In this document: one piece after another, positions 257 through 38,769 of the stretch
Position numbering within the stretch: the first letter of the stretch is position 1
How the letters are laid out: every line of letters starts with the position of its first letter
Assembly (NCBI GenBank): GCA_018813685.1
Contig: JAHJAV010000107.1
Coordinates: forward strand, 1-39,000
DNA: 39,000 nt
Origin: Nanobdellota archaeon
GTDB lineage: Archaea; Nanobdellota; Nanobdellia; Woesearchaeales; JACPBV01
Direction of reading: 5' to 3'
Made by a program: the position numbers and the translations under genes
The notes under the pieces: model-generated
Told to the model about the DNA's origin: nothing
The model's database searches: none
What the model saw: only the letters and a program-made list of their open reading frames with translations

Positions 257-556
257 ATGAAATGTAAATCATATAACTTGTTTTTCGAAACATTCAGCAA
301 TAAGACTAGGATGCATATCATAGAATCCCTCATAGAAGGCCCAAAATCAGTAACAGAGATCTGCAGCATAACAGGTGAAGAACAAAGCCAGATAAGCCAT
401 AACTTAAGGAAACTTATGGAATGCCATTTCATCGATGTCGAAAGAAAAGGCAAACAAAGAATATACTCCTTAAACAAAGATACAATAATCCCTATCCTAA
501 AATTAGTAGAAACTCACGTTCATAAATATTGTAATAAGGAGTGTGGTAAAAAATGA
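257..556 (+). CDS. ArsR-family winged-helix regulator
   Basis: 99 aa with ArsR-like HTH (NKTRMHIIESLIEGPKSVTEICSITGEEQSQISHNLRKL) and His/Cys-rich C-terminus HVHKYCNKECGKK; overlaps iscS start. Confidence 0.85.
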   Translation: MKCKSYNLFFETFSNKTRMHIIESLIEGPKSVTEICSITGEEQSQISHNLRKLMECHFIDVERKGKQRIYSLNKDTIIPILKLVETHVHKYCNKECGKK

Positions 557-1809
557 AACTTTCGAACGATAGTGGGGAAGGTTTAGAAAATTCAAAGAAT
601 TTTCAAAAAATCTACTTAGACAACAGCGCAACAACCATGGTTGACAAAGAAGTAGCTAAAGCCATGCAGCCTTACTTCACAAAAATCTACGGAAATGCAT
701 CTTCTCTCCATCAATTCGGCCAGGAAGCAAAAAGAGCCCTAGAACAAAGCAGAGAGATCATAGCTAAAAGCATAAACGCAGATCCAAAAGAAATAATATT
801 TACAAGTGGAGGAACAGAATCAGACAACTTAGCTATAAAGGGAATAGCCTACGCTAACAAAGAAAAAGGGAATCATATAATCACTACAAAAATAGAGCAT
901 CACGCAGTTGAACATACTTGCAAATCATTAGAAAAAGAAGGATTCAAAATAACATACCTTGACGTAGATAAAGAAGGATTCATAAATCCGGATCAATTAA
1001 AAAAAGAGATAACAGATAAAACAATATTAGTTACCATCATCCATGGAAACAACGAAATAGGGGCAATACAAGACATAGAACCAATAGGAACCATTTGTAA
1101 AGAACATAACATCCCCCTCCACATAGATGCAGTCCAGTCATTCACAAAGACAGAGATAGATGTAAAAAAACAAAACATAACCTTATCATCATTCTCAGCC
1201 CATAAGCTCCACGGTCCAAAAGGGATAGGTGCCTTATACATAAAAAAAGGAACTAAACTGAATAAACTGATAGAAGGCGGAGCTCATGAATTTAACTTAA
1301 GGCCTGGAACAGAAAACATTCCAGGAATAGTTGGCTTTGCAAAAGCAGTTGAGATAGCAAAACAAGAAGACTGTAAAAAAATAGCAGAATTAAGAGACTA
1401 CTTCATAGAAAAAGTCCTAAAAGAAATCCCAGAAACAAAGCTTAATGGCCCAACAAAAGATAGGCTCTGCAACAACATAAACATAACCTTCAAATTCATA
1501 GAAGGAGAAGCGTTATTGATAAAATTAGACGATAAAGGTATTGCAGTTTCAACAGGTTCAGCCTGCTCATCTAAAGATTTAAGGCCATCACACGTTTTAA
1601 CAGCTATTGGCCTTCATCCAGCAGTAGCCCACGGCTCGATAAGATTCACATTATCCAAATATACAACAAAAGAAGAGCTGGATTACACTTTAACTCATCT
1701 AAAAAAAGCCGTAAAAGAATTAAGAGAGCTAAGCCCATTATGGGGTCAGTCAGAAGAAGAGCTTACAAAAGCAGCATATGAAGATGATCATGAACACGAA
1801 GGTGAATAA
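553..1809 (+). CDS. iscS: Cysteine desulfurase (IscS/NifS family)
   Basis: Motifs IYLDNSATT, HAVEHT, HGNNEIGAIQDIEPIG, SAHKLHGPKGIGALYIKKG, STGSACSS. Confidence 0.93.
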   Translation: MKLSNDSGEGLENSKNFQKIYLDNSATTMVDKEVAKAMQPYFTKIYGNASSLHQFGQEAKRALEQSREIIAKSINADPKEIIFTSGGTESDNLAIKGIAYANKEKGNHIITTKIEHHAVEHTCKSLEKEGFKITYLDVDKEGFINPDQLKKEITDKTILVTIIHGNNEIGAIQDIEPIGTICKEHNIPLHIDAVQSFTKTEIDVKKQNITLSSFSAHKLHGPKGIGALYIKKGTKLNKLIEGGAHEFNLRPGTENIPGIVGFAKAVEIAKQEDCKKIAELRDYFIEKVLKEIPETKLNGPTKDRLCNNINITFKFIEGEALLIKLDDKGIAVSTGSACSSKDLRPSHVLTAIGLHPAVAHGSIRFTLSKYTTKEELDYTLTHLKKAVKELRELSPLWGQSEEELTKAAYEDDHEHEGE

Positions 1810-1811
1810 AA

Positions 1812-1862
1812 ATGCAAAAAAATCAAGATTTTAAGCATAAAAAATCACGGGGTGATTTTTAA
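1812..1862 (+). CDS. Possible 16-codon leader ORF whose stop overlaps the iscU start (TAATG)
   Basis: ATG CAA AAA AAT CAA GAT TTT AAG CAT AAA AAA TCA CGG GGT GAT TTT TAA(TG) = MQKNQDFKHKKSRGDF. Confidence 0.3.
   Translation: MQKNQDFKHKKSRGDF
1840..1860 (+). promoter_or_regulatory. Perfect hairpin containing the iscU Shine-Dalgarno-like sequence
   Basis: AAAAATCAC-GGG-GTGATTTTT directly before ATG 1862; GGGGTGAT resembles the archaeal SD GGAGGTGAT. Confidence 0.5.
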
Positions 1863-3391
1863 TGTATTCAGAAAAAGTAATGGAACACTTCAAGAACCCT
1901 CATAATCTTCGAGAGATAAAAGACGCAGATGGTATAGGGAAGATAGGTAATCCTACATGTTTATTGCCCTCTGAAAAATTACACAAAAATTCAGAGTGTA
2001 TTGCAATATCTAGGCTAAAGAAAAATAAAATGGTTCTTAGCCATACAGGGAATTATGAGAAAGTCATTGAAGCATATTCTAGGAAATATAATGGAGAAAT
2101 TATACGGCTGAAGAATAAGATTGGAAGCGTAAACATAACTCCGGAACATCTGGTATATTCTATAAAAGTTCCTAAAGGGGACATGTTTAAAAGAAATTTT
2201 GGAAAAAAAACATTAACACCTACTTGGCATCATGCTCAAGATTTGAAAAAGGGCGATATAGTATTATACCCAATTTTAAAAAAAGAGGAAGATATCAAAT
2301 TTTTGGAAATAGATACCCCTAAGCCGAAATATGATTTTAGAAGTAAAAATATTCATAAAAAAGTAAAATTGGATTCAGATTTGCTAAGATTGTTTGGCTA
2401 TTTTCTTTCCGAAGGAAATATTCAAGAAAAGCCGTCTAAAACATATATTTCATTTAGCTTGAACTTAAATGAAAAAAATATATCTGATGATATACACCAT
2501 ATCTCAACTAAATTATTTAATATTGAAGTTAAAATTAAAGAAATTCCAAAAAGAAAGACAATGAGGGTCTACTTATACAATGCTCAATTAGCAAGATGGT
2601 TCAAAAGTTTATTTGGAAATGGGGCTGAAAATAAAAAACTTCCAGATTTCATTATGCGCCTCCCAACAGAAAAGCAGAAGGCATTAATTTTTGGTCTTTG
2701 GAAAGGGGATGGATACGTAAACATAGATAGGCATGGGCCAAGGGCAGGTTATGCTACAATTTCATATCAATTAGCCCAACAGATTAAGATGTTATTGTTA
2801 AGGCAGAATATTGTCCCTTCAATCTATGCAGAAAGAGCTAAGAAAATTAATGGAGTTAGCCATAAAAAAGCGTATAGGATACACATTGGGCAAAGAGAGT
2901 CCTTAAAAAGATTATGTAGGATATTAAATGTAAAATATAACCCAACCTCTTATGAGTCGATTAGATCATGGTTTGACAAAAACTTCCTTTACACCCCAAT
3001 AACCAACAAGGAAATCTTTAAATATGATGGAATCGTCAATAATCTTGAAGTAGCCAATACTCACTCTTTTGTTTCAGAATCCTTTTGCCTTCATAATTGC
3101 GGCGATGTTATGTGGGTTTATATCAAAGTAGAAAAGAACAAAGAAGGCAAGGAATACATAAAAGACATCGGTGTAAAGACCTTTGGCTGTGTTGCAGCTA
3201 TAGCCACATCCAGCATGATTACTGAATTAGCTAAAGGCAAAACTCTAGAGGAAGCAAAGAAAATAACTAGAGACGACATAAAAGACGCTTTAGATGGCCT
3301 CCCACTAATAAAAGTCCATTGTTCAAATTTATCAGCAGATGGCTTAAAGAAAGCAATAGAGGATTACGAAACCAAGAAAGGTAAAAGATGA
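1862..3391 (+). CDS. iscU: IscU-type Fe-S scaffold precursor interrupted in frame by an intein
   Basis: N-extein MYSEKVMEHFKNPHNLREIKDADGIGKIGNPT; C-extein CGDVMWVYIKVE...VKTFGCVAAIATSSMITELAKG...KVHCSNLSADGLKKAI. The three conserved Cys are present after removing the insert. Confidence 0.93.
   Translation: MYSEKVMEHFKNPHNLREIKDADGIGKIGNPTCLLPSEKLHKNSECIAISRLKKNKMVLSHTGNYEKVIEAYSRKYNGEIIRLKNKIGSVNITPEHLVYSIKVPKGDMFKRNFGKKTLTPTWHHAQDLKKGDIVLYPILKKEEDIKFLEIDTPKPKYDFRSKNIHKKVKLDSDLLRLFGYFLSEGNIQEKPSKTYISFSLNLNEKNISDDIHHISTKLFNIEVKIKEIPKRKTMRVYLYNAQLARWFKSLFGNGAENKKLPDFIMRLPTEKQKALIFGLWKGDGYVNIDRHGPRAGYATISYQLAQQIKMLLLRQNIVPSIYAERAKKINGVSHKKAYRIHIGQRESLKRLCRILNVKYNPTSYESIRSWFDKNFLYTPITNKEIFKYDGIVNNLEVANTHSFVSESFCLHNCGDVMWVYIKVEKNKEGKEYIKDIGVKTFGCVAAIATSSMITELAKGKTLEEAKKITRDDIKDALDGLPLIKVHCSNLSADGLKKAIEDYETKKGKR
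1958..3097 (+). other. Intein with LAGLIDADG homing endonuclease domain (380 aa)
   Basis: Starts at Cys (CLLPSEKLH), block B-like VNITPEHLVYSI, LAGLIDADG-like LLRLFGYFLSEGN and LIFGLWKGDGYVN, block F/G NNLEVANTHSFVSESFCLHN followed by Cys+1. Confidence 0.92.
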
Positions 3392-19002: not shown

Positions 19003-19206
19003 ATGGTAAAAATCACAATAAATAGTGAAAAATGCAAGGAATGCGGATTTTGTATTACAGCTTGCCCTATAAAAAATATCAGGCTCTCTTCAAACCTAAA
19101 CAAAAAAGGCTATCATTACGCAGAAATCATAGATGTAAGCAAATGCACAGGTTGCGGTCTATGTTACCAGATGTGCCCTGATTTGTGCATAGAAATTGAG
19201 AAATAA
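19003..19206 (+). CDS. korD: 2x[4Fe-4S] ferredoxin subunit of 2-oxoacid:ferredoxin oxidoreductase
   Basis: CKECGFCITACP and CTGCGLCYQMCP. Confidence 0.88.
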   Translation: MVKITINSEKCKECGFCITACPIKNIRLSSNLNKKGYHYAEIIDVSKCTGCGLCYQMCPDLCIEIEK

Positions 19207-19216
19207 TCAACATAAA

Positions 19217-20284
19217 ATGTCCAACAAAAAAGTCATAATGAAGGGCAATGAAGTTATTGTAGAAGCTGCTTTAAACGCAGGCTGCAAATTCTATGCAGGC
19301 TATCCAATCACTCCACAAAACGAAATTCCAGAATACATGTCTAAAAGGGCACCTGCATTTAACTCAATCTTTATACAGGCAGAAGCAGAACTCTCTGCAA
19401 TAAACATGCTTTTCGGTGCATCTGCAGTAGGCGCAAGATGTATGACTTCATCCAGCTCACCAGGCATTGCATTAAAGCAGGAAGGCATTTCATACATAGC
19501 AGCAGGAGAGCTTCCATGCGTCATAGTAAATATAGTCAGAGGAGGTCCTGGCTTAGGAAACATAAAAGCAGCCCAGTCAGATTACTTCCAGGCAACTAAA
19601 GGCGGCGGCCATGGAGATTATCATATGATTGTGATAACCCCCCATACAGTTCAGGAACTATATGATTTAACAATGAAATCATTCGATTACGCTGACTACT
19701 ATAGAAATCCAGTTATGATTTTAGGAGATGGCATTTTAGGCCAGATGTTCGAGCCAGTTGAACTTACGCCATACAAGCCAATACTTCAACTTCCACCAAA
19801 AGACTTTGCATTGACAGGCTGCAAAGGCAGAGAACCAAGAGTAGTCAAGACCTTATTCTTATACCCTAATGATTCATTGATGAAACATAATATTCACTTG
19901 GATGAAAAATACAAAAAGATACAGAAAGAACTCACTTTAGTAGAAGAATACAAAACAGAAGACGCAGAAATAATCCTAGTAGCATATGGCATAACCGCAA
20001 GAATAGCAAAAGGCGCTATCGAACAGGCAAGAAAAGACAATATAAAAGTAGGATTGATACGTCCAATCACAGTCTGGCCATTCCCTTCTAAATCAATAGC
20101 AAAAGCATCAGAACACTGCAAGAAATTCATTTCAGTAGAGATGTCCAACGGCCAGATGGTAGAAGATGTAAAGCTTGCTCTATTCGGAAAATCAGGAATC
20201 AAGGTAGAGCATTTCGGAATTGGCGGCGGTTGGTATCCATCAAAAACTAATATTTATGATAAGATCAAAGAATCAGTAAAATAA
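19217..20284 (+). CDS. korA: 2-oxoacid (probably 2-oxoglutarate):ferredoxin oxidoreductase alpha subunit
   Basis: MKGNEVIVEAALNAGCKFYAGYPITPQNEIPEYMSKR; ASAVGARCMTSSSSPGIALKQEGISYIAAGELPCVIVNIVRGGPGLG. Confidence 0.9.
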   Translation: MSNKKVIMKGNEVIVEAALNAGCKFYAGYPITPQNEIPEYMSKRAPAFNSIFIQAEAELSAINMLFGASAVGARCMTSSSSPGIALKQEGISYIAAGELPCVIVNIVRGGPGLGNIKAAQSDYFQATKGGGHGDYHMIVITPHTVQELYDLTMKSFDYADYYRNPVMILGDGILGQMFEPVELTPYKPILQLPPKDFALTGCKGREPRVVKTLFLYPNDSLMKHNIHLDEKYKKIQKELTLVEEYKTEDAEIILVAYGITARIAKGAIEQARKDNIKVGLIRPITVWPFPSKSIAKASEHCKKFISVEMSNGQMVEDVKLALFGKSGIKVEHFGIGGGWYPSKTNIYDKIKESVK

Positions 20285-20292
20285 ACAATAAG

Positions 20293-21024
20293 ATGAAATT
20301 CAAAAAACCAGAATCACACAAATCAGCAGTAACTCACTATTGTAGTGGCTGCGGCCATGGGATTGCCCATCGTTTAGTCGCAGAAGTCTTAGATGAACTA
20401 AACATCAGGGAAAAAACAATAGGCACAGCGCCGGTAGGCTGCGCAGTCTTATTATACAACTATTTCAATTGCGACATAATCGAATGTGCGCATGGAAGGC
20501 CTCCGGCAGTTGCAACAGCAATGAAGCGATTGATGCCAGATAACATAGTATTTACATATCAGGGAGATGGTGATTTAGCAGCTATCGGCACAACAGAAAC
20601 AATCCACGCTGCAAACAGGGGAGAAAACTTCACAGTAATCTTTGTGAATAATGCAGTTTATGGTATGACTGGCGGCCAGATGGCCCCAACAACAATGCTC
20701 GGTCAAAAGACAACTACAACTCCATTCGGAAGAAGATCCGAAATAGAAGGCCATCCGATAAGAGTATGCGAACTATTGGCAACTCTAGACGGCACAACAT
20801 ACATAGAGCGTACAGCAGTAAACTCACCAAAAAACACATCAAAAGCAAAAGCAGCGATAAAAAAAGCATTCCAGTATCAACTTGAAAACAAAGGATTCAC
20901 ATTCGTAGAAATATTGTCACCATGTCCAACAAACTGGAAGTTAACTCCAAAAGATTCATTAGACTATGTTAATAAGATGCAGGAATACTTCCCATTAGGA
21001 GTTTTTAAAGATAAATTACAATAG
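20293..21024 (+). CDS. korB: 2-oxoacid:ferredoxin oxidoreductase beta subunit (TPP-binding)
   Basis: HYCSGCGHGIAHRLVAEVLDEL; GDGDLAAIGTTETIHAANRGENFTVIFVNNAVYGMTGGQMAPTT. Confidence 0.92.
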   Translation: MKFKKPESHKSAVTHYCSGCGHGIAHRLVAEVLDELNIREKTIGTAPVGCAVLLYNYFNCDIIECAHGRPPAVATAMKRLMPDNIVFTYQGDGDLAAIGTTETIHAANRGENFTVIFVNNAVYGMTGGQMAPTTMLGQKTTTTPFGRRSEIEGHPIRVCELLATLDGTTYIERTAVNSPKNTSKAKAAIKKAFQYQLENKGFTFVEILSPCPTNWKLTPKDSLDYVNKMQEYFPLGVFKDKLQ

Positions 21025-21043
21025 TACAAAAAATCAAACTAAC

Positions 21044-21580
21044 ATGAAAGAAGAAAAAATAATGATAGCAGGCTTTGGCGGGCAGGGAATAATCCTTGCA
21101 GGAAACGTTATAGCTCAGGCAGCATTAGCTGAAAACAAGAAAGTAGCTGCAATGGTAAGCTATGGTGCAGAAGTTCGTGGAGGAACAGCCACATGTACAG
21201 TAATAATATCTGATGAAGAGATTGCTTCCCCTGTAGTTGAAAACCCGACAAGCGCAATAATTCTAAACCAGCCTTCTCTAGATAAATTTGAAGATGACCT
21301 TGTAAAAGGCGGATTGATAGTCCTGAACAGCTCTTTAGTGCAAAGGGAAGTTATAAGAAAAGACCTTGAAGTTCTAAAGGTGCCAGCAACAGGATTGGCA
21401 AACGAACTTGGAAATCCAAAAGTAGCTAATTTAATATTGATAGGGGCATTCATAAAAAAAACTAAAATTCTGGACATAAACAAAGTCCTGGAAATTATCC
21501 CTCAGTCTTTTCCAAAGCATAAGCAGGATGTTGTTGAAATCAACAAAAAAGCTTTATTGAAAGGCGCTGAGTTAGTATAA
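21044..21580 (+). CDS. korC: 2-oxoacid:ferredoxin oxidoreductase gamma subunit
   Basis: GFGGQGIILAGNVIAQAAL; SYGAEVRGGTATCTVIIS. Confidence 0.92.
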   Translation: MKEEKIMIAGFGGQGIILAGNVIAQAALAENKKVAAMVSYGAEVRGGTATCTVIISDEEIASPVVENPTSAIILNQPSLDKFEDDLVKGGLIVLNSSLVQREVIRKDLEVLKVPATGLANELGNPKVANLILIGAFIKKTKILDINKVLEIIPQSFPKHKQDVVEINKKALLKGAELV

Positions 21581-21955
21581 AAAATCCAGCTGATCCGACC
21601 TTACTGTTATCTCAGAAGGAAACTTCTTATGAATCCTAATATCTGATTTTTTATCCTCTTTCTTCTCCGATACTTTAGCCGCATCAATACTTTTACTAGA
21701 ACCCTTAACCTGAGGATTCATCTCAATCCCTTTCTTAAAGTTGATATTTCCGCAGTTCATGCACTTGAAATAAGGCCCGTATTTTCCCTCAAATGTATCC
21801 AGCCACGAACCGCATACACACTTCATATCTTTTAATTCATCATCCTTATGCAAAGAACACACAGGAACTCCCTGCTTATTTTTAGTCACTCCAATCTTTC
21901 CGCAGAACGGGCAATTATCTATCCTAGATGATCCATAACGTTTTGGGATACGCAT
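21572..21955 (-). CDS. Zinc-ribbon protein distal in the por operon
   Basis: CPFCGK...CSLH...CVCG...CMNCG; stop of porB at 21956 directly abuts. Confidence 0.65.
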   Translation of the reverse strand: MRIPKRYGSSRIDNCPFCGKIGVTKNKQGVPVCSLHKDDELKDMKCVCGSWLDTFEGKYGPYFKCMNCGNINFKKGIEMNPQVKGSSKSIDAAKVSEKKEDKKSDIRIHKKFPSEITVRSDQLDFLY

Positions 21956-22876
21956 TTACTCACTCAGCTTGACAAGTTTATCCCATTCAGAATTAACATT
22001 CTCCTGTATTTTGTCTACAATGTGCTGGTTCTCTGGCTTAAGAAGATGCTTAAACCTTCCCTGTGTTTTTAAGAATTCAATTACAGGAACATCTTTAGCT
22101 GGCTTGTAAGTTAATTTATACTTACCATTCTCAACTTCATAAAGTGGCCAGAACTTTGTTTCGACAGCCAGCTTTGCAATCTCAACAGTCTTGTCCATAG
22201 GATATTTCCACCCTAATGTGCATGGCTGCAATACTAATAATACCTTTGGCCCTTTTATTGAAAAAGCCTTTTGTGCCTTGTTTGTAAGATCGATTATGTT
22301 GGATAATGATGCCTGTGCAACATAAGGTATATTATGTGCTACACATATCTTTGCAAAATCCTTTCTGAACTCCTGCTTTCCAGGTATCTTCTTTCCAGCT
22401 GGTGCTGTTGTTGTAGAAGCCCCATAAGGAGTAGCAGAACTTCTCTGTATTCCAGTATTCATATAAGCTTCATTATCATAACAGACATAAAGGAAATCAT
22501 GCCCTCTCTCCAATGCGCCAGAAAGCGATTGTAGTCCTATATCATAAGTCCCACCATCTCCGCCAAAAGCAACAAACTGTATATCGTTCTTTATCTTTCC
22601 TCTTCTTTTTAGTGCATTATAAGCTGCCTCTACTCCAGATATTGTTGCTGCTGAGTTCTCAAAAGCAGAGTGTATAAATGGGATGTTCCATGAAGTAAAT
22701 GGATAGATTGTTGTAGTAACTTCTAAGCACCCTGTTGCTGAAGCAGCTATCAATGGTTTATCAGTAGATGCTAATACTGCCCTAACTATTTGTGGAAATC
22801 CGCATCCAGAGCAGCTTCTATGCCCCGGTACTAATTTTTCAGTTTTTAGTTTTAATGCTAATTCTTTGTAGTTCAT
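21956..22876 (-). CDS. porB: Pyruvate:ferredoxin oxidoreductase beta subunit
   Basis: GHRSCSGCGFPQIVRAVL, GGDGGTYDIGLQSLSGALERGHDFLYVCYDNEAYMNTGIQRSSATP. Confidence 0.93.
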   Translation of the reverse strand: MNYKELALKLKTEKLVPGHRSCSGCGFPQIVRAVLASTDKPLIAASATGCLEVTTTIYPFTSWNIPFIHSAFENSAATISGVEAAYNALKRRGKIKNDIQFVAFGGDGGTYDIGLQSLSGALERGHDFLYVCYDNEAYMNTGIQRSSATPYGASTTTAPAGKKIPGKQEFRKDFAKICVAHNIPYVAQASLSNIIDLTNKAQKAFSIKGPKVLLVLQPCTLGWKYPMDKTVEIAKLAVETKFWPLYEVENGKYKLTYKPAKDVPVIEFLKTQGRFKHLLKPENQHIVDKIQENVNSEWDKLVKLSE

Positions 22877-24033
22877 TCTTCTCTCAACCCTATATAATCA
22901 TGATCTTTAAGTTTCCCGTCTAACAATCTATTAAACACGCCTATGATATCTTCAACAAATATATTTCTTCCCCCTAGTCCGAATACGCACGAATGTAATT
23001 TTCCAGTATATTTTACATCATATAATCCATTCTTTACCTCGCTATACAATGGAGGATTTGCTCCGAAAGAAACAGACCTGTCTAAAACAGCTATCTTCTT
23101 AACATGTTTTAATGCATCACTAACTTCTTTGTAAGGGAATGGCCTGAATAATCTTAATTTTAATAATCCTACTTTCTTGCCTTCTTTTCTCATTGCATCT
23201 ATTGCTGTTTTTGTTGTTCCAGCTGTGGAATTCATCACAACAATTACAGCTTCAGCATCCTTCATCTCATATTCATCAAATAAGGGGTATTTTTTCTTTG
23301 TTATCTTGCCAAGTTCTTCTCCTATCTTGACAAATTCCTTTTTAGCTTCTTCCATCACAGGAATCTGCTGGCTTCTTGTCTCAAAATAATAATCCTGTAA
23401 TTGTAATGGCCCGTGTGTAACTGGCTTTTTAATGTCGAGCAGCCCATAAGGATACTTATGCTCTCCAACAAACTTCTTTACACCCTCATCATCAAATATC
23501 TCAACATTCTCAACACCATGCGATGTTATGAATCCATCTTGGCATACCATAGCTGGAATCAATAATTTCTCAGCAAGCCTCACAGCAATAAGAGTATGCT
23601 CATAAACTTCCTGTGCATTTTCAGAGAATATCTGTATCCATCCAAGATCTCTAGTGCCCATTGAATCAGAATGATCGCAATGAATATTGATTGGCGCCGA
23701 TAAGGCCCTATTTACAACTTCCATCACTATAGGTAATCTTAATCCTGCAGCTACTCCAACAATCTCCCACATCAAAGCAAGCCCTGCAGACGAAGTAGCA
23801 GTCATTACTCTTGCTCCAGCAGCAGATGCTCCCACGCAGCAAGACATTGCAGAATGCTCAGATTCTACCCTTACCAATTCAGTATCTACAATTCCATTAG
23901 CAACATAATTTGCAAAGTTCTGTGCAATTGCAGTCTGAGGAGTAATAGGATAAGCAGCCACTACATCAGGATTTATCTGCCTCATTGCCTCTGCAGCAGA
24001 TTCAGCTCCAGTCATCGCTGTTGTTTTGCTCAT
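22873..24033 (-). CDS. porA: Pyruvate:ferredoxin oxidoreductase alpha subunit
   Basis: TAMTGAESAAEAMRQINPDVVAAYPITPQT; start set at MSKTTAM, overlapping porD stop. Confidence 0.93.
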   Translation of the reverse strand: MSKTTAMTGAESAAEAMRQINPDVVAAYPITPQTAIAQNFANYVANGIVDTELVRVESEHSAMSCCVGASAAGARVMTATSSAGLALMWEIVGVAAGLRLPIVMEVVNRALSAPINIHCDHSDSMGTRDLGWIQIFSENAQEVYEHTLIAVRLAEKLLIPAMVCQDGFITSHGVENVEIFDDEGVKKFVGEHKYPYGLLDIKKPVTHGPLQLQDYYFETRSQQIPVMEEAKKEFVKIGEELGKITKKKYPLFDEYEMKDAEAVIVVMNSTAGTTKTAIDAMRKEGKKVGLLKLRLFRPFPYKEVSDALKHVKKIAVLDRSVSFGANPPLYSEVKNGLYDVKYTGKLHSCVFGLGGRNIFVEDIIGVFNRLLDGKLKDHDYIGLREE

Positions 24034-24326
24034 TTTATGAACTTTGCCTCCTCTTCCATCTTTATACATTTGACAGGACAGACATTAGCGCAAATTCCGC
24101 ATCCTTTGCAATAATCAAGATCAATCTCCCCTCTTTTACCATCTTCTTTTACACTTATACAATGCTCGGGGCAGAATACATCGCACATCATACAGTTTAT
24201 GCATTTGCTTTCTTCAATCAATGGCCTGAAACTTCTCCAATCACCAGTCTTAAACTTTCTGGATGAGCCTGCTTCATCTATCAAGCCTCCAATCGGTATT
24301 TCTTTTGCTGATTTTAATCTGCTCAT
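24030..24326 (-). CDS. porD: Pyruvate:ferredoxin oxidoreductase delta (ferredoxin) subunit
   Basis: CINCMMCDVFCPEHC and CKGCGICANVCPVKC. Confidence 0.92.
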   Translation of the reverse strand: MSRLKSAKEIPIGGLIDEAGSSRKFKTGDWRSFRPLIEESKCINCMMCDVFCPEHCISVKEDGKRGEIDLDYCKGCGICANVCPVKCIKMEEEAKFIK

Positions 24327-24898
24327 TTGACTGCCTCATAAGCCATGTCTATACCATTGATAGTAGCATTTGTTTTTTCTTCACCTAATTTCTTCAAAAA
24401 CTTATCTTTGCAGCTTTTCTTTACTGCATCAAGTGGGATAGCATTTGTAAGTTTTACAAAAGCTCCAAGCATAGGCGTATTCGGAAGGTTCTTTCCAACA
24501 GTATCGATAGATATCTTAGTAGCATCTACAGTATATAATTTACCCTTATAATTTTTCAATTCTTTTCTTATATCATCAGCGCTTTTAGGCGTGTTTACGA
24601 TTAAAATTCCCTTATCACTCATCCCTTCAGTAACATCAATAGATACCATCAAAGTTGGATCAATAACCATAACAACATCAGGGCTTATAACAGGGGCATA
24701 ATTAGATATCGCCTTATCAGATATTCTTGCATAAGCTTTCATAGGAGCACCTGCTCTTTCAGGCCCATACTCTGGAAATGATTGTATATGTTTTCCCTCT
24801 CCAAGTGCAGACTCTGCAATGAACTGAGAAGCAGTTTTAGCCCCTTGACCCCCTCTTCCATGAATCCTTATTTCCAGTAATCCTTTTTCCATAGCCAA
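24323..24898 (-). CDS. porG: Pyruvate:ferredoxin oxidoreductase gamma subunit
   Basis: EIRIHGRGGQGAKTASQFIAESALGEGKHIQSFPEYGPERAGAPMKAYARIS. Confidence 0.93.
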   Translation of the reverse strand: MAMEKGLLEIRIHGRGGQGAKTASQFIAESALGEGKHIQSFPEYGPERAGAPMKAYARISDKAISNYAPVISPDVVMVIDPTLMVSIDVTEGMSDKGILIVNTPKSADDIRKELKNYKGKLYTVDATKISIDTVGKNLPNTPMLGAFVKLTNAIPLDAVKKSCKDKFLKKLGEEKTNATINGIDMAYEAVK

Positions 24899-33650: not shown

Positions 33651-35519
33651 ATGGAAACAGAAACTCATTTTTTAGACATGATAGAATCTCCTAAGGATCT
33701 AAAAGTTCTGAATAGCCAGCAGCTTAGTCTTCTAGCTAATGAGATAAGGAATAAGATCATCACCACAGTTGCAAAAACCGGCGGCCATCTAGCTTCTAGC
33801 CTAGGTGTTGTAGAACTCTCAATTGCATTAAACTATTCATTTAACCTCCCAAAAGACAAAATCGTTTGGGACGTAGGCCACCAAAGTTACGCCCACAAGC
33901 TTCTCACTGGCAGGGCAAAAAGATTCCATACATTAAGGCAGCATAAGGGACTATCTGGCTTTCCAAAAATCTATGAAAGCGAATACGACTCATTTGGTAC
34001 AGGCCACAGCTCAACAGCAATTTCAGCAGCTTTAGGAATTGCAAAAGCAAGAGACCTAAAACAAGAAAACTACAAGGTAATTTCAGTAGTTGGAGATGGC
34101 GCTCTTACAGGGGGGATGGCTTTTGAAGGCCTTAACAACGCAGGCCATCTTAAATCAGATTTAATCGTAGTTCTCAATGACAACAGGATGTCCATCAGCC
34201 AAAATATAGGCGCATTATCTTCTTATCTAAGAAAGATGATAACTCACCCTAAATACAAAGAAACAAGAAAAAAAATAGGCAGCTTCCTAAACAAATGGAG
34301 CAATAAAGCAGCAGAAAGAGCATTTGCACTCGAAGATACCCTAAGGGCAATGTCAGGTCCAGGCTTATTGTTCAAGGAGATGGGATTTAGGTATTTTGGT
34401 CCAATCAACGGCCATGACCTGCAGGCATTAACACGGGTATTCAACAACATAAAAGACATCAAAGGCCCAATATTGGTTCACATAATAACAAAAAAAGGAA
34501 AAGGCTATGCCTATGCAGAAGAAGAAGTCACAAAATTCCATGGAATCAGCCAGTTTAATATTGAAAATGGAGAAAAGATAAAATCAAGTAATCAGATAAC
34601 TTATACAGGTGCTTTCTCAAATGCACTAGTAAAGATGGCAAGAGAAGATAAGAGGGTTATAGCAATCACAGCAGCAATGTCAGCAGGCACAGGATTGGAC
34701 AGATTCTCAAAAGAATTCCCAGATAGGTTCTTCGATGTTGGAATAGCAGAGCAGCACGCTGTTACATTTGCAGCAGGATTGGCAACACAGGGCTTTAAGC
34801 CAGTTGTAGCAATGTATTCTACATTTCTCCAAAGGGCATATGACCAGATTATTCACGATGTATGCCTTCAAAATCTTCCAGTAACCTTTGCAATAGACAG
34901 AGCAGGAATAGTAGGGGAAGACGGCCCTACTCACCATGGTCCATTCGATTTAAGTTTCTTAAGGAACATACCTAATTTAACAATAATGGCGCCAAAAGAC
35001 GAAAACGAATTAGGCCATATGCTTAAAACAGCTTTAGAATTAAATTCACCTGCAGCAATCCGTTATCCAAGGGGTATAGGGGCAGGAGTACAGATACAAA
35101 ATCCATATCATACAATTGAAATAGGCAGCTCTGAAATACTTAAAGAAGGAAAAGACATCTTGATTATTGCAGCAGGCCCGCTTTCATACTTAGCGCTGGA
35201 AGCAGCAAAAGAACTGGAGAAAAAAGGAAAATCCGTATGTGTAATCAACACAAGATTCATCAAGCCGCTTGACGAAAAAACCATCTCAGCTCTGGCAAAA
35301 AAAATAGGGAAGATAATCACAATAGAAGAAAACGCACTAGAAGGCGGTTTTGGCTCAGCAATTTTAGAGCTATTGGAAAAAAACAAGATTAAAGCAAAAG
35401 TAAAAAGAATAGGCATTCCAGATGAATTCATAGAACATGGGCCCCAGGAATTATTAAGAAAAAATATCGGATTGACCAAAAGCAATATATTGTCTGCTGC
35501 TAAAGAGATATTATCATGA
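33651..35519 (+). CDS. dxs: 1-deoxy-D-xylulose-5-phosphate synthase
   Basis: GHLASSLGVVELSIALNY, WDVGHQSYAHKLLTGR, VVGDGALTGGMAFEGLNNAG, AEQHAVTFAAGLA, DRAGIVGEDGPTHHG. Confidence 0.97.
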   Translation: METETHFLDMIESPKDLKVLNSQQLSLLANEIRNKIITTVAKTGGHLASSLGVVELSIALNYSFNLPKDKIVWDVGHQSYAHKLLTGRAKRFHTLRQHKGLSGFPKIYESEYDSFGTGHSSTAISAALGIAKARDLKQENYKVISVVGDGALTGGMAFEGLNNAGHLKSDLIVVLNDNRMSISQNIGALSSYLRKMITHPKYKETRKKIGSFLNKWSNKAAERAFALEDTLRAMSGPGLLFKEMGFRYFGPINGHDLQALTRVFNNIKDIKGPILVHIITKKGKGYAYAEEEVTKFHGISQFNIENGEKIKSSNQITYTGAFSNALVKMAREDKRVIAITAAMSAGTGLDRFSKEFPDRFFDVGIAEQHAVTFAAGLATQGFKPVVAMYSTFLQRAYDQIIHDVCLQNLPVTFAIDRAGIVGEDGPTHHGPFDLSFLRNIPNLTIMAPKDENELGHMLKTALELNSPAAIRYPRGIGAGVQIQNPYHTIEIGSSEILKEGKDILIIAAGPLSYLALEAAKELEKKGKSVCVINTRFIKPLDEKTISALAKKIGKIITIEENALEGGFGSAILELLEKNKIKAKVKRIGIPDEFIEHGPQELLRKNIGLTKSNILSAAKEILS

Positions 35520-36565
35520 GAAGAAAAACAAGGCAGGTAAAGGTTGGAAATGTAATTATCGGGGGAGATTCCCCTATATCCATACAAAGCATGTGCAATA
35601 CATTGACTAAAGATGCAGACAAGACAATACAGCAGATTCACAAATTAGAAGAAGTTGGCTGTGAAATAATCAGAGTATCTGTTCCAGATATGGAATCAGC
35701 AAATGCCTTAAAAAAGATAAAAGAAAACATATCGATCCCTTTAGTTGCAGACATTCATTTCGACTACAAATTAGCTTTAGAATCAGCAAGATATGTTGAT
35801 AAATTAAGGATTAACCCAGGAAACATAGGGGATGAAGAAAAGATAAAATTAGTTATAAACGAAGCCAAAAATAGAAACATCCCTATAAGAATTGGAGTCA
35901 ACATGGGATCCTTAGAAAAAGACATTGAAGCAAAATATGGCCTTACAGCAAAAGCATTAGTGGAATCCGCAAAAAAGCACATTCAGCTCTTGGAAAAGCT
36001 TGATTTCTACAATATAATCATTGCATTGAAAGCATCAGATGTTCCCAGAACAATCAAAGCATATAGGATGTTTGCAGAACTGAATGATTATCCGTTGCAT
36101 CTGGGCATTACAGAAGCAGGAACAGGATTCACAGGCGGAATAAAATCAGCAGTTGGAATAGGCGCATTACTAGAACAAGGAATTGGAGACACGCTTAGAG
36201 TATCATTAAGCGCAGACCCAATAGAAGAAGTCAAAGTCGGAAAAGAAATCCTAAAATCATTAAAACTAAGAAGATTCGGAATAGAAGTAACAGCCTGCCC
36301 GACATGCGCAAGAGCTAACTTTGACGTTGCAAAGATAGTATCAGACATAGAAGAAAAGACTCAATCAATAAAAACTCCATTAAATATAGCAGTAATGGGC
36401 TGCGCAGTTAATGGCCCTGGCGAAGCAAAAGAAGCAGACTTGGGAATTGTAGGCGGAAAAGATGGCTGCTTGTTTTATAAAAATGGGGAGATAATTGGAA
36501 AGCTAAGAGAAGATGAAATAATTGATAAAATAATCCATGAAGTAAATTTAATCACTTTAAAGTAG
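35516..36565 (+). CDS. ispG: 4-hydroxy-3-methylbut-2-enyl diphosphate synthase
   Basis: VGNVIIGGDSPISIQSMCNT, VADIHFDYKLAL, RINPGNIG, TACPTCARANFD, MGCAVNGPGEAKEADLGIVGG. Confidence 0.97.
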   Translation: MRRKTRQVKVGNVIIGGDSPISIQSMCNTLTKDADKTIQQIHKLEEVGCEIIRVSVPDMESANALKKIKENISIPLVADIHFDYKLALESARYVDKLRINPGNIGDEEKIKLVINEAKNRNIPIRIGVNMGSLEKDIEAKYGLTAKALVESAKKHIQLLEKLDFYNIIIALKASDVPRTIKAYRMFAELNDYPLHLGITEAGTGFTGGIKSAVGIGALLEQGIGDTLRVSLSADPIEEVKVGKEILKSLKLRRFGIEVTACPTCARANFDVAKIVSDIEEKTQSIKTPLNIAVMGCAVNGPGEAKEADLGIVGGKDGCLFYKNGEIIGKLREDEIIDKIIHEVNLITLK

Positions 36566-36685: not shown

Positions 36686-37615
36686 ATGTGGGTGGATAAA
36701 GAATTATATGAAAGAATTCTAAGGAAAAAGAAAGAACTCGACAGCTTAAGGCCTTTTTCCAAGGCTTCGCTTAACAGGCTGAAAGGGAATTTTAATATAG
36801 AATCAACCTACAACTCCAACGCAATTGAAGGCAACACACTTACCAAATCTGAAACACGGCTGGTTCTTGAAGAAGGCGTAACCATTGGCGGCAAGTCAAT
36901 GAGGGAGCATTTTGAGGCAATAAACCACAAAGAGGCAATAGATTTTATAGAGTCTGTTGTAAATGATAAAAAAAAGATAAGCAAGGAAACAATCTGCAGG
37001 ATAAATGGTTTAATCTTAAATAACATAGAAGATGATGAAAAAGGAGTTTATAGGTTAAGAAAAGTGCATATCGAAGGAGCGTCTTTTATCCCCCCAATGC
37101 CTTCGCTTATTCCAAGGCTTATGGGTGATTTTCTTGGCTGGCTCGAAAAAAACAAAGAAAAGATGAATATAGCTGATTATGCTGCTTTAGCCCATGAGAA
37201 ATTTGTTTTTATTCACCCGTTTATAGATGGCAACGGAAGGTGCGCAAGATTATTGGTTAATCTGCTGCTCATTCAGCAAGGTTATCCCCCAATTGTCATT
37301 TTAAAGGCAGAAAGAAAGAAATATATAAAAACACTTGATGGCGCCCATCAGGAAAAATACACTCCTTTTGTAAATTTCATAGTCCGCAATATAGAGCGTT
37401 CGCTTTCTTTATGGATTGATGCCTTAAAAATACCTGAAAAAGGCAATAATGAAGAATACATTTCACTGACAGAAGCCTCAAAGCTGTGCCCCTACAGCCA
37501 GGAATACTTAAGTTTATTGGCAAGAAAAGGCACTTTGGAAAGCATAAAGATTAAAAGGAATTGGGTAACTACGAGGAAAGCACTAGGGGAATATCTAAAA
37601 AGGAACAAAAAATGA
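36686..37615 (+). CDS. Fic-domain AMPylase-like protein with N-terminal inhibitory motif and C-terminal HTH
   Basis: HPFIDGNGRCARLLVNLLLIQQG catalytic motif; SNAIEGN inhibitory-helix motif; C-terminal LTEASKLCPYSQEYLSLLARKGTLESIKIKRNWVTT. Confidence 0.93.
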   Translation: MWVDKELYERILRKKKELDSLRPFSKASLNRLKGNFNIESTYNSNAIEGNTLTKSETRLVLEEGVTIGGKSMREHFEAINHKEAIDFIESVVNDKKKISKETICRINGLILNNIEDDEKGVYRLRKVHIEGASFIPPMPSLIPRLMGDFLGWLEKNKEKMNIADYAALAHEKFVFIHPFIDGNGRCARLLVNLLLIQQGYPPIVILKAERKKYIKTLDGAHQEKYTPFVNFIVRNIERSLSLWIDALKIPEKGNNEEYISLTEASKLCPYSQEYLSLLARKGTLESIKIKRNWVTTRKALGEYLKRNKK

Positions 37616-38769
37616 AAACCCTCTCAATCTTAGGCTCAACAGGCAGCATAGGAACTCAAACCCTGGACATAGTCAGAATTTTTCCCAATAAATTCAAAGT
37701 AGTTGCACTAACTTGCAATTCTAACATCGAACTATTAAAACAGCAGATAGATGAATTCAAGCCAGAGATTGTTGCAGTATATGATGAAGAAAAAGCAGAT
37801 GAACTAAAAGCAGACATTCCAGTCTACAAAGGCATGGATGGCTTGATAAGAGCAGCAACAATAGGAAAAGCAAACACTATAGTAAACTCATTAGTCGGCT
37901 CCATCGGAGTTATACCCACGATAAAAGCAATTGACAACCTAAAAAATGTAGCATTAGCCAACAAAGAAACCTTAGTTACAGCAGGAGCAATTGTAATGAA
38001 AAAGCTGAGCTCAAGCAAAACAAGCCTGATCCCTATAGATTCAGAGCATTCTGCAATCCTTCAATGCTTGAATGGAGAAAACGTAAATGATGTAAGTAAA
38101 ATAACCCTTACCTGCTCAGGCGGAGCATTCAAAAACAGATCAAAAGGAGAACTAGGTCATGTAAAAGCTGAAGACGCATTAAAACATCCTACATGGAACA
38201 TGGGTGCTAAAATTACAATAGATAGTGCAACCTTTATGAACAAAGGCTTTGAAGTGATAGAAGCCCACTGGCTCTATAACCTTCCTTACTCAAAGATTGA
38301 TGTAGTTATCCATCCTCAAAGCATAGTCCATTCATTGGTTGAATTTAAAGACAAATCAGTTATTGCTCAGCTCGGAATGCCTGATATGAGAATTCCTATA
38401 CAGTATGCATTAAACTATCCACAAAGGATTAAAAATGAATCCCTGCCTCAACTAAACTTAACAGAAATAAAAGAGCTCACATTCAAAGAGCCAGACTTGG
38501 AAAGATTCCCCTGTCTTAAGATGGCTTACGACGTAGGAATCAAAAGTGGAACTCTGCCAGCAGTAATGAACGCAGCAAATGAAATAGCAGTGAAATATTT
38601 CCTTCAGGATAAGATAAGATTTAACGACATCCATAGAATAATCCAGGAAAGCATAGGCCAGCACACTGTAATAACCAATCCAACTATAGATGAGATTATG
38701 GAAATAGACAAAAAAACAAAAGAGGAAACAGAAAAAGAAATTGAAAAAGGTATGTGCATAGCATCCTAA
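37612..38769 (+). CDS. dxr: 1-deoxy-D-xylulose-5-phosphate reductoisomerase
   Basis: MKTLSILGSTGSIGTQTLDIVR, ALANKETLVTAG, IPIDSEHSAILQCL, LTCSGGAF, TWNMGAKITIDSATFMNKGFEVIEAHWLY, VIHPQSIVHSLVEFKD, MNAANEIAV. Confidence 0.97.
   Translation: MKTLSILGSTGSIGTQTLDIVRIFPNKFKVVALTCNSNIELLKQQIDEFKPEIVAVYDEEKADELKADIPVYKGMDGLIRAATIGKANTIVNSLVGSIGVIPTIKAIDNLKNVALANKETLVTAGAIVMKKLSSSKTSLIPIDSEHSAILQCLNGENVNDVSKITLTCSGGAFKNRSKGELGHVKAEDALKHPTWNMGAKITIDSATFMNKGFEVIEAHWLYNLPYSKIDVVIHPQSIVHSLVEFKDKSVIAQLGMPDMRIPIQYALNYPQRIKNESLPQLNLTEIKELTFKEPDLERFPCLKMAYDVGIKSGTLPAVMNAANEIAVKYFLQDKIRFNDIHRIIQESIGQHTVITNPTIDEIMEIDKKTKEETEKEIEKGMCIAS

Follow-up and report, generated by a model that had tools for sequence, protein, structure and literature searches.

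The window, meaning the whole 39,000-nt stretch of DNA analyzed here, comes from a genome of the Woesearchaeota order (DPANN) and carries an intein allele of iscU. Its gene order is ArsR-type regulator, iscS, and iscU, with iscS directly upstream of iscU (Table 1). The iscU precursor reads GKIGNPT-[CLLPSEK...FCLHN]-CGDVMWV free of stops, with residues 1–32 and 413–509 making up the two IscU/NifU_N halves and residues 33–412 the intein, and the IscU ligands are complete in the exteins (C413, D415, C443, H486, and C487).

Table 1. Features of the iscS–iscU cluster in the window (window coordinates)
Feature	Position	Strand	Evidence or remark
ArsR-type winged-helix regulator	257..556	+	Pfam HTH_5 3.8e-10; opens the iscS–iscU cluster
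iscS, cysteine desulfurase	553..1809	+	Pfam Aminotran_5 1.5e-89; NCBIfam NifS 1.5e-158
iscU precursor ORF, 509 aa, intein-interrupted	1862..3391	+	Pfam
IscU N-extein, 32 aa, ending in GNPT	1862..1957	+	Pfam NifU_N, stretch 1
Intein, 380 aa, class 1, LAGLIDADG homing endonuclease	1958..3097	+	Pfam, NCBIfam, AlphaFold2/Foldseek
Cys1, splicing nucleophile, block A, TGT	1958..1960	+	Invariant, 36/36 precursors
Block B, TPEH (TxxH)	2138..2149	+	H96 invariant, T93 nearly so
LAGLIDADG helix 1, LFGYFLSEGN, acidic E184	2390..2419	+	Pfam and allele alignment
LAGLIDADG helix 2, IFGLWKGDGY, acidic D283	2687..2716	+	Pfam and allele alignment
Blocks F and G, ending in His411-Asn412	3032..3097	+	NCBIfam intein_Cterm above cut-off; HN invariant
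Last intein Asn, AAT	3095-3097	+	Sequence
IscU C-extein, 97 aa and stop	3098..3391	+	Pfam NifU_N, stretch 2
Cys+1, TGC, splicing nucleophile and first cluster-ligand Cys of mature IscU	3098..3100	+	Invariant CGDxM; A. fulgidus IscU 4eb5 match
Second ligand Cys, C443	3188..3190	+	Cys in 35/36 precursors
His-Cys ligands, H486 and C487	3317..3322	+	Nearly invariant

Pfam searches with the window precursor matched NifU_N in two stretches (2.1e-34), LAGLIDADG_3 (1e-18), and Hom_end (2.9e-5), with Intein_splicing (1.6e-6) at 28.4 bits falling under its curated cut-off of 35.8, and NCBIfam intein_Cterm, at 22.8 bits, exceeding its cut-off of 15.6. In the window intein, blocks A (Cys), B (TPEH), and G (HN) are in place, as is C+1; block F reads VNNLEV (VYNLEV in most alleles), without a clear counterpart of the usual class 1 Asp, a residue that varies among inteins. 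An AlphaFold2 model of the precursor, computed from the window sequence and 35 homologues from the present searches, had a mean pLDDT of 90.5 and a pTM of 0.80. The best Foldseek match in the PDB was the TliVMA intein (7qsu, E 1.7e-22, TM 0.76 by target), further endonuclease inteins, PI-SceI among them, were also matched, and the extein matched IscU proteins, including that of A. fulgidus (4eb5), so that both readings, intein and IscU, stand at the fold level.

The first-pass annotation had placed an intein within IscU exactly before the first cluster-ligand Cys, and the exact junctions, the Pfam matches, and the fold model bear this out; the proposed check for a Hint or LAGLIDADG match to 1958–3097 returned a Hint fold from AlphaFold2/Foldseek and LAGLIDADG_3, with Intein_splicing as the sub-threshold match noted above. 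An acidic residue is kept in both LAGLIDADG helices, as had been claimed, and the motif quoted for the first helix is correct, the second, quoted as LFGLWKGDGY, being a misreading of IFGLWKGDGY. We conclude that 1958–3097 is a class 1 intein in IscU, predicted to splice autocatalytically, with a two-helix LAGLIDADG endonuclease domain whose cleavage of the empty allele is putative and has indirect support from the occurrence of empty alleles and from the discordant trees described below.

Same-site inteins in other genomes

Junction DNA was scanned in ~85,000 GTDB species genomes for HN/CGD[VIM]M (slash, splice junction) with a hydrophobic residue two positions further on. Four of the 42 loci found (L040, L048, L067, and L073) were chance matches and were dropped; in each of the other 38, an IscU gene carries an intein whose end coincides with the junction. 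By record title, the hosts are Nanoarchaeota, Pacearchaeota, Woesearchaeota, Diapherotrites, Micrarchaeota, Aenigmatarchaeota, Altiarchaeota, Thermoplasmata (including Methanomassiliicoccus), SCG-AAA382B04, Patescibacteria of several kinds, Omnitrophota, Elusimicrobiota, and WOR-1. The whole precursor is a single ORF at 35 fetched loci, and a 36th (L038) is complete in a longer stretch (L164); one precursor has an in-frame TGA (L037), and one gene lies across two contigs (L051). The lone in-frame stop of L037, from an Aenigmatarchaeota genome, falls at ~943–945 of a second stretch with the same gene (L162), where relatives have Gly (LSHDGKYH), and may be an error, a pseudogene, or recoding. 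A Paceibacterota MAG has the IscU intein on two contig ends (L163 and L165), which is likely an assembly break or, less probably, a split intein.

A census of 236 sampled genomes of the window's own phylum found NifU_N in 204, intein-split in at least eight (G000, G270, G176, G201, G224, G302, G304, and G267). Three of these cases were new; all three have the intein at the same site, and two belong to a second NifU-type subfamily of greater length. This subfamily (GSPAC type, with a C-terminal extension) carries the same intein at L168, L036, L046, and L166. The open frame of the G304 IscU intein (L166:920-2320) begins inside the intein, its N-terminal part being broken or frameshifted. No full-length match was obtained when 97 relatives were searched with the whole precursor, and the allele is therefore sporadic within the window's order. 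An inteinless allele, for which a search of related genomes had been suggested, was found in a relative of the same order (G018), with an identical ArsR-regulator/iscS/iscU order and an IscU 97% identical to that of the window over 33 residues through the junction Cys and 77% identical downstream; the empty site is thus present in relatives. Extended matches in G064 and G045, at first sight intein remnants, were ordinary inteinless NifU-type proteins. Viral carriage was also considered and rejected: the pattern gave two matches in viral contigs, both chance ORFs, and of the intein's relatives on viral contigs the ten best all lie within other genes. The IscU intein allele, as recognized from its sequence, is broadly distributed, occurring in ~40 genomes from several phyla of both Archaea and Bacteria, a breadth that the first-pass annotation had missed.

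Across 36 precursors, C33, H411, N412, C413, and the TxxH His are invariant. The other loci were selected in part by HN/C, which the window was not; none of Cys1, the block B motif, intein length, or the upstream site entered into that selection. Intein length is 369–384 aa in all alleles but one, and some pairs of alleles have diverged to 36 to 40% identity. Nearly every allele retains the two acidic residues of the endonuclease, the mutated ones being L041 (E to V) and L164 (D to G, GDG to GGG), and in a bacterium MAG the IscU site is occupied by a mini-intein of 144 aa that has no endonuclease (L046:6776-7207). The splicing residues are all intact in these three alleles, as expected from an ongoing need for splicing after loss of homing. 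Conservation of the protein motif leaves the target codons, GGN AAY CCN NNN / TGY GGN GAY NTN ATG, almost without variation, and this provides a simple explanation for the breadth of hosts.

Predicted splicing and its possible regulation

It is very probable, on the sequences and the fold model, that 1958–3097 is a class 1 homing-endonuclease intein, occupying one iscU site before the first ligand Cys, that self-splices and has spread by homing. The precursor would self-splice by the standard thioester route, from Cys1 to Cys+1 and on to Asn cyclization, joining GNPT to CGDVM and so producing an intact ligand loop. The endonuclease would cut intein-free iscU at the codons for GNPx/CGDxM, which cluster binding would hold nearly unchangeable, allowing the intein to pass between hosts that are only remotely related. 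Constitutive splicing is probable, as is its necessity for Fe-S assembly where there is no other scaffold.

The first-pass annotation had considered it plausible that redox state, metals, or Fe-S status gate splicing, in which case the intein would be kept as a switch and IscU released only when that status was suitable. Cys1 and Cys+1 are indeed both thiols, Cys+1 being also a cluster ligand, endonuclease-defective alleles are retained with intact splicing motifs, and there are two precedents: the M. tuberculosis SufB intein, an oxidative and nitrosative sensor (Topilina 2015, as cited in PMC5874633), and the P. abyssi MoaA intein, which forms a disulfide trap requiring an N-extein Cys (PMC10663303). 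The window N-extein, however, lacks the Cys that a MoaA-type trap would need, and among the 36 precursors none of the non-catalytic Cys is conserved, the best being present in 21 of them and replaced by Ser in the window, and C409 in 10; moreover, homing alone explains the patchy distribution, the mostly intact endonucleases, and the tree discordance described below. Retention of the intein as such a switch is accordingly unlikely. Gating by a direct Cys1–Cys+1 disulfide is possible, and redox or metal gating of IscU splicing in general, as judged from the sequences, is possible but unsupported, given an N-extein without Cys and no conserved regulatory Cys. It is likewise rather unlikely that a single IscU intein, carried across domains among uncultured lineages, both makes Fe-S assembly dependent on splicing wherever no other scaffold is present and, in some hosts, acts as a condition-sensitive gate.

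Both precedents resemble the IscU intein in other respects. The mycobacterial SufB (Pps1) intein is also class 1 with a LAGLIDADG endonuclease and an Fe-S scaffold as host, and has in common with it the canonical Cys1, penultimate His, Asn, and Cys+1; SufB, however, is a SUF-system protein unrelated to IscU, and its intein is described from mycobacteria and Ferroplasma (PMC8891592), whereas the IscU intein ranges over DPANN, CPR, Omnitrophota, and others. The P. abyssi MoaA intein is archaeal, resides in an Fe-S protein, and uses thiol chemistry, but its redox gate pairs the N-extein Cys with Cys1 (PMC10663303), and the IscU N-extein has no such residue.

Other scaffolds and the probable need for splicing

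The intein-split gene is the sole NifU_N in 34 of the 38 genomes found with the pattern (extra copies in G100, G120, G133, and G134), and a SUF core was present in four of the 38 (G100, G105, G117, and G119), leaving 31 in which no second NifU_N and no SUF core were detected; most of these genomes are incomplete MAGs, which weakens single cases and not the trend. Splicing therefore looks obligatory in the 31 genomes, where, judging from gene content, IscU-based Fe-S assembly should require it as a step.

In the window's genome, no SufB/SufD core was found with a search model that matches in all 14 control genomes, and there is one IscS (a single genome match, no second close copy being found). 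The genome has a further NifU_N, an intein-free IscU-like paralogue on contig C94 (G000:C94:10783-11148, L024:5784-6152; motif GDPDCSDV), which is 42% identical to the window IscU and retains the complete IscU set of three Cys, one Asp, and one His. Its neighbors are Mrp-like ATPase, NifX/NifB-type, and DUF134-like genes, with no IscS among them. Since a counterpart with 64% identity stands beside a normal inteinless IscU in G018, the C94 gene represents a separate paralogue of long standing rather than an allele that lacks the intein. The C94 protein could have some scaffold activity, as its ligand residues suggest.

These results qualify the claim that splicing creates the active scaffold: it is well grounded, the window gene being the only NifU_N adjoining the only IscS, in a genome with no SUF core, but the C94 paralogue bars a claim of complete dependence. 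A second intact iscU acting as the real scaffold had been named as grounds for rejecting that claim, and the C94 gene answers the description in part, being intein-free, but 42% identical and away from IscS. If it were the working scaffold, the window precursor could splice poorly or be dispensable. The retained Cys, Asp, and His residues and the lack of an intein would fit such a role; the low identity, the Mrp/NifX-like surroundings without IscS, and the coexistence of the orthologue with a normal IscU in G018 argue against it, as does the window ORF itself, which is intact, has conserved ligands and splice residues, and adjoins the only IscS, and we regard this alternative as decidedly unlikely.

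Two ferredoxin oxidoreductase gene sets, recognized by sequence reading only, lie back to back on opposite strands at 19196–24898 of the window; as Fe-S enzymes, their products would rely on IscU.

Descent of the intein and comparison with known systems

For the intein tree, 35 IscU inteins were compared with 16 others (four from the window's genome, and those of relatives, an Endonuclease Q-like protein, and viruses). The 35 IscU inteins formed one clade, with support of 98/94, apart from the 16 others, and none of the tested other inteins of the window's genome fell inside it. When constrained to the intein topology, the extein data rejected it (delta lnL 197, p-AU 3e-6), whereas four random intein samples of similar length were compatible with the intein tree, none being rejected (delta lnL 10 to 18 where printed), and the intein has therefore moved between iscU genes. 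Single transfers, tested for the window with L059 and for L060 with Omnitrophota, did not reach significance (p-AU 0.15 to 0.29, ~130 extein columns). The claim is limited to overall discordance between intein and extein, and individual transfers are without significant support. The window's genome is itself intein-rich, with further inteins in large ORFs on contigs C3, C115, C87, C110, and C34 (L169-L176, L178-L182).

Independent entry of several unrelated inteins into the same IscU site might be expected of a strongly conserved motif, the usual intein target, and some alleles are as highly diverged as noted above; nevertheless, with all 35 tested alleles in one clade against the 16 others, and with their nearly uniform length, such convergence is very improbable. 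An assembly chimera or bin artefact, conceivable for a window from a 128-contig MAG, is next to impossible, because the precursor is one open frame and its exact junctions recur in 38 independent loci, in records of independent projects and among them a complete chromosome (Ca. Fermentimicrarchaeum limneticum, CP058998), which likewise disposes of chance. The preferred reading remains a single homing intein family moving between iscU genes.

The nearest solved folds, the archaeal VMA inteins (TliVMA, 7qsu, and PhoVMA, 7qst) and PI-SceI, have the same arrangement of a Hint domain with an inserted LAGLIDADG domain, but differ in host gene and target and are 13 to 20% identical to the IscU intein. 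The tetraether lipid synthase Tes intein (NCBIfam NF045703, E 4.1e-23) was the best among the named intein-containing families listed; the match covers the endonuclease and the C-terminal part, and the Tes host protein and target site differ from those of IscU. The closest other-host intein found in the order, in an Endonuclease Q-like (PHP) protein of a relative (G042, L027:1665-4124), is 39% identical, and has a different host and a place outside the IscU clade. Compared with NifU_N scaffolds such as A. fulgidus IscU (4eb5), the window gene differs in being interrupted, whereas its extein is that of a normal IscU with a full set of ligands.

No report of an intein in IscU or NifU was found in open-access full text, nor was an IscU intein reported in open-access full text on inteins with DPANN, Woesearchaeota, Patescibacteria, or Nanoarchaeota, in agreement with the first-pass annotation, which was aware of no established case. 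Among the NCBIfam intein-containing exception models in the matches listed, Tes and GyrA were present and none was for IscU. What is new is the host, the site, and the breadth of the intein; the mechanism is that of an ordinary class 1 intein. Most known inteins reside in replication, recombination, and repair proteins (PMC5874633). The IscU intein sits in a scaffold for a basic cofactor, at a metal-ligand Cys that doubles as splicing nucleophile, and its natural allele series (full, endonuclease-dead, mini-intein, and empty site) could be used for studying cross-domain homing and any redox or iron tuning of splicing.

The window also contains genes of MEP isoprenoid synthesis, assigned by Pfam (dxs, 33651–35519; ispG (GcpE), 35516–36565; dxr, 37603–38769), the bacterial MEP pathway having been known earlier for some Woesearchaeota (PMC8421398).
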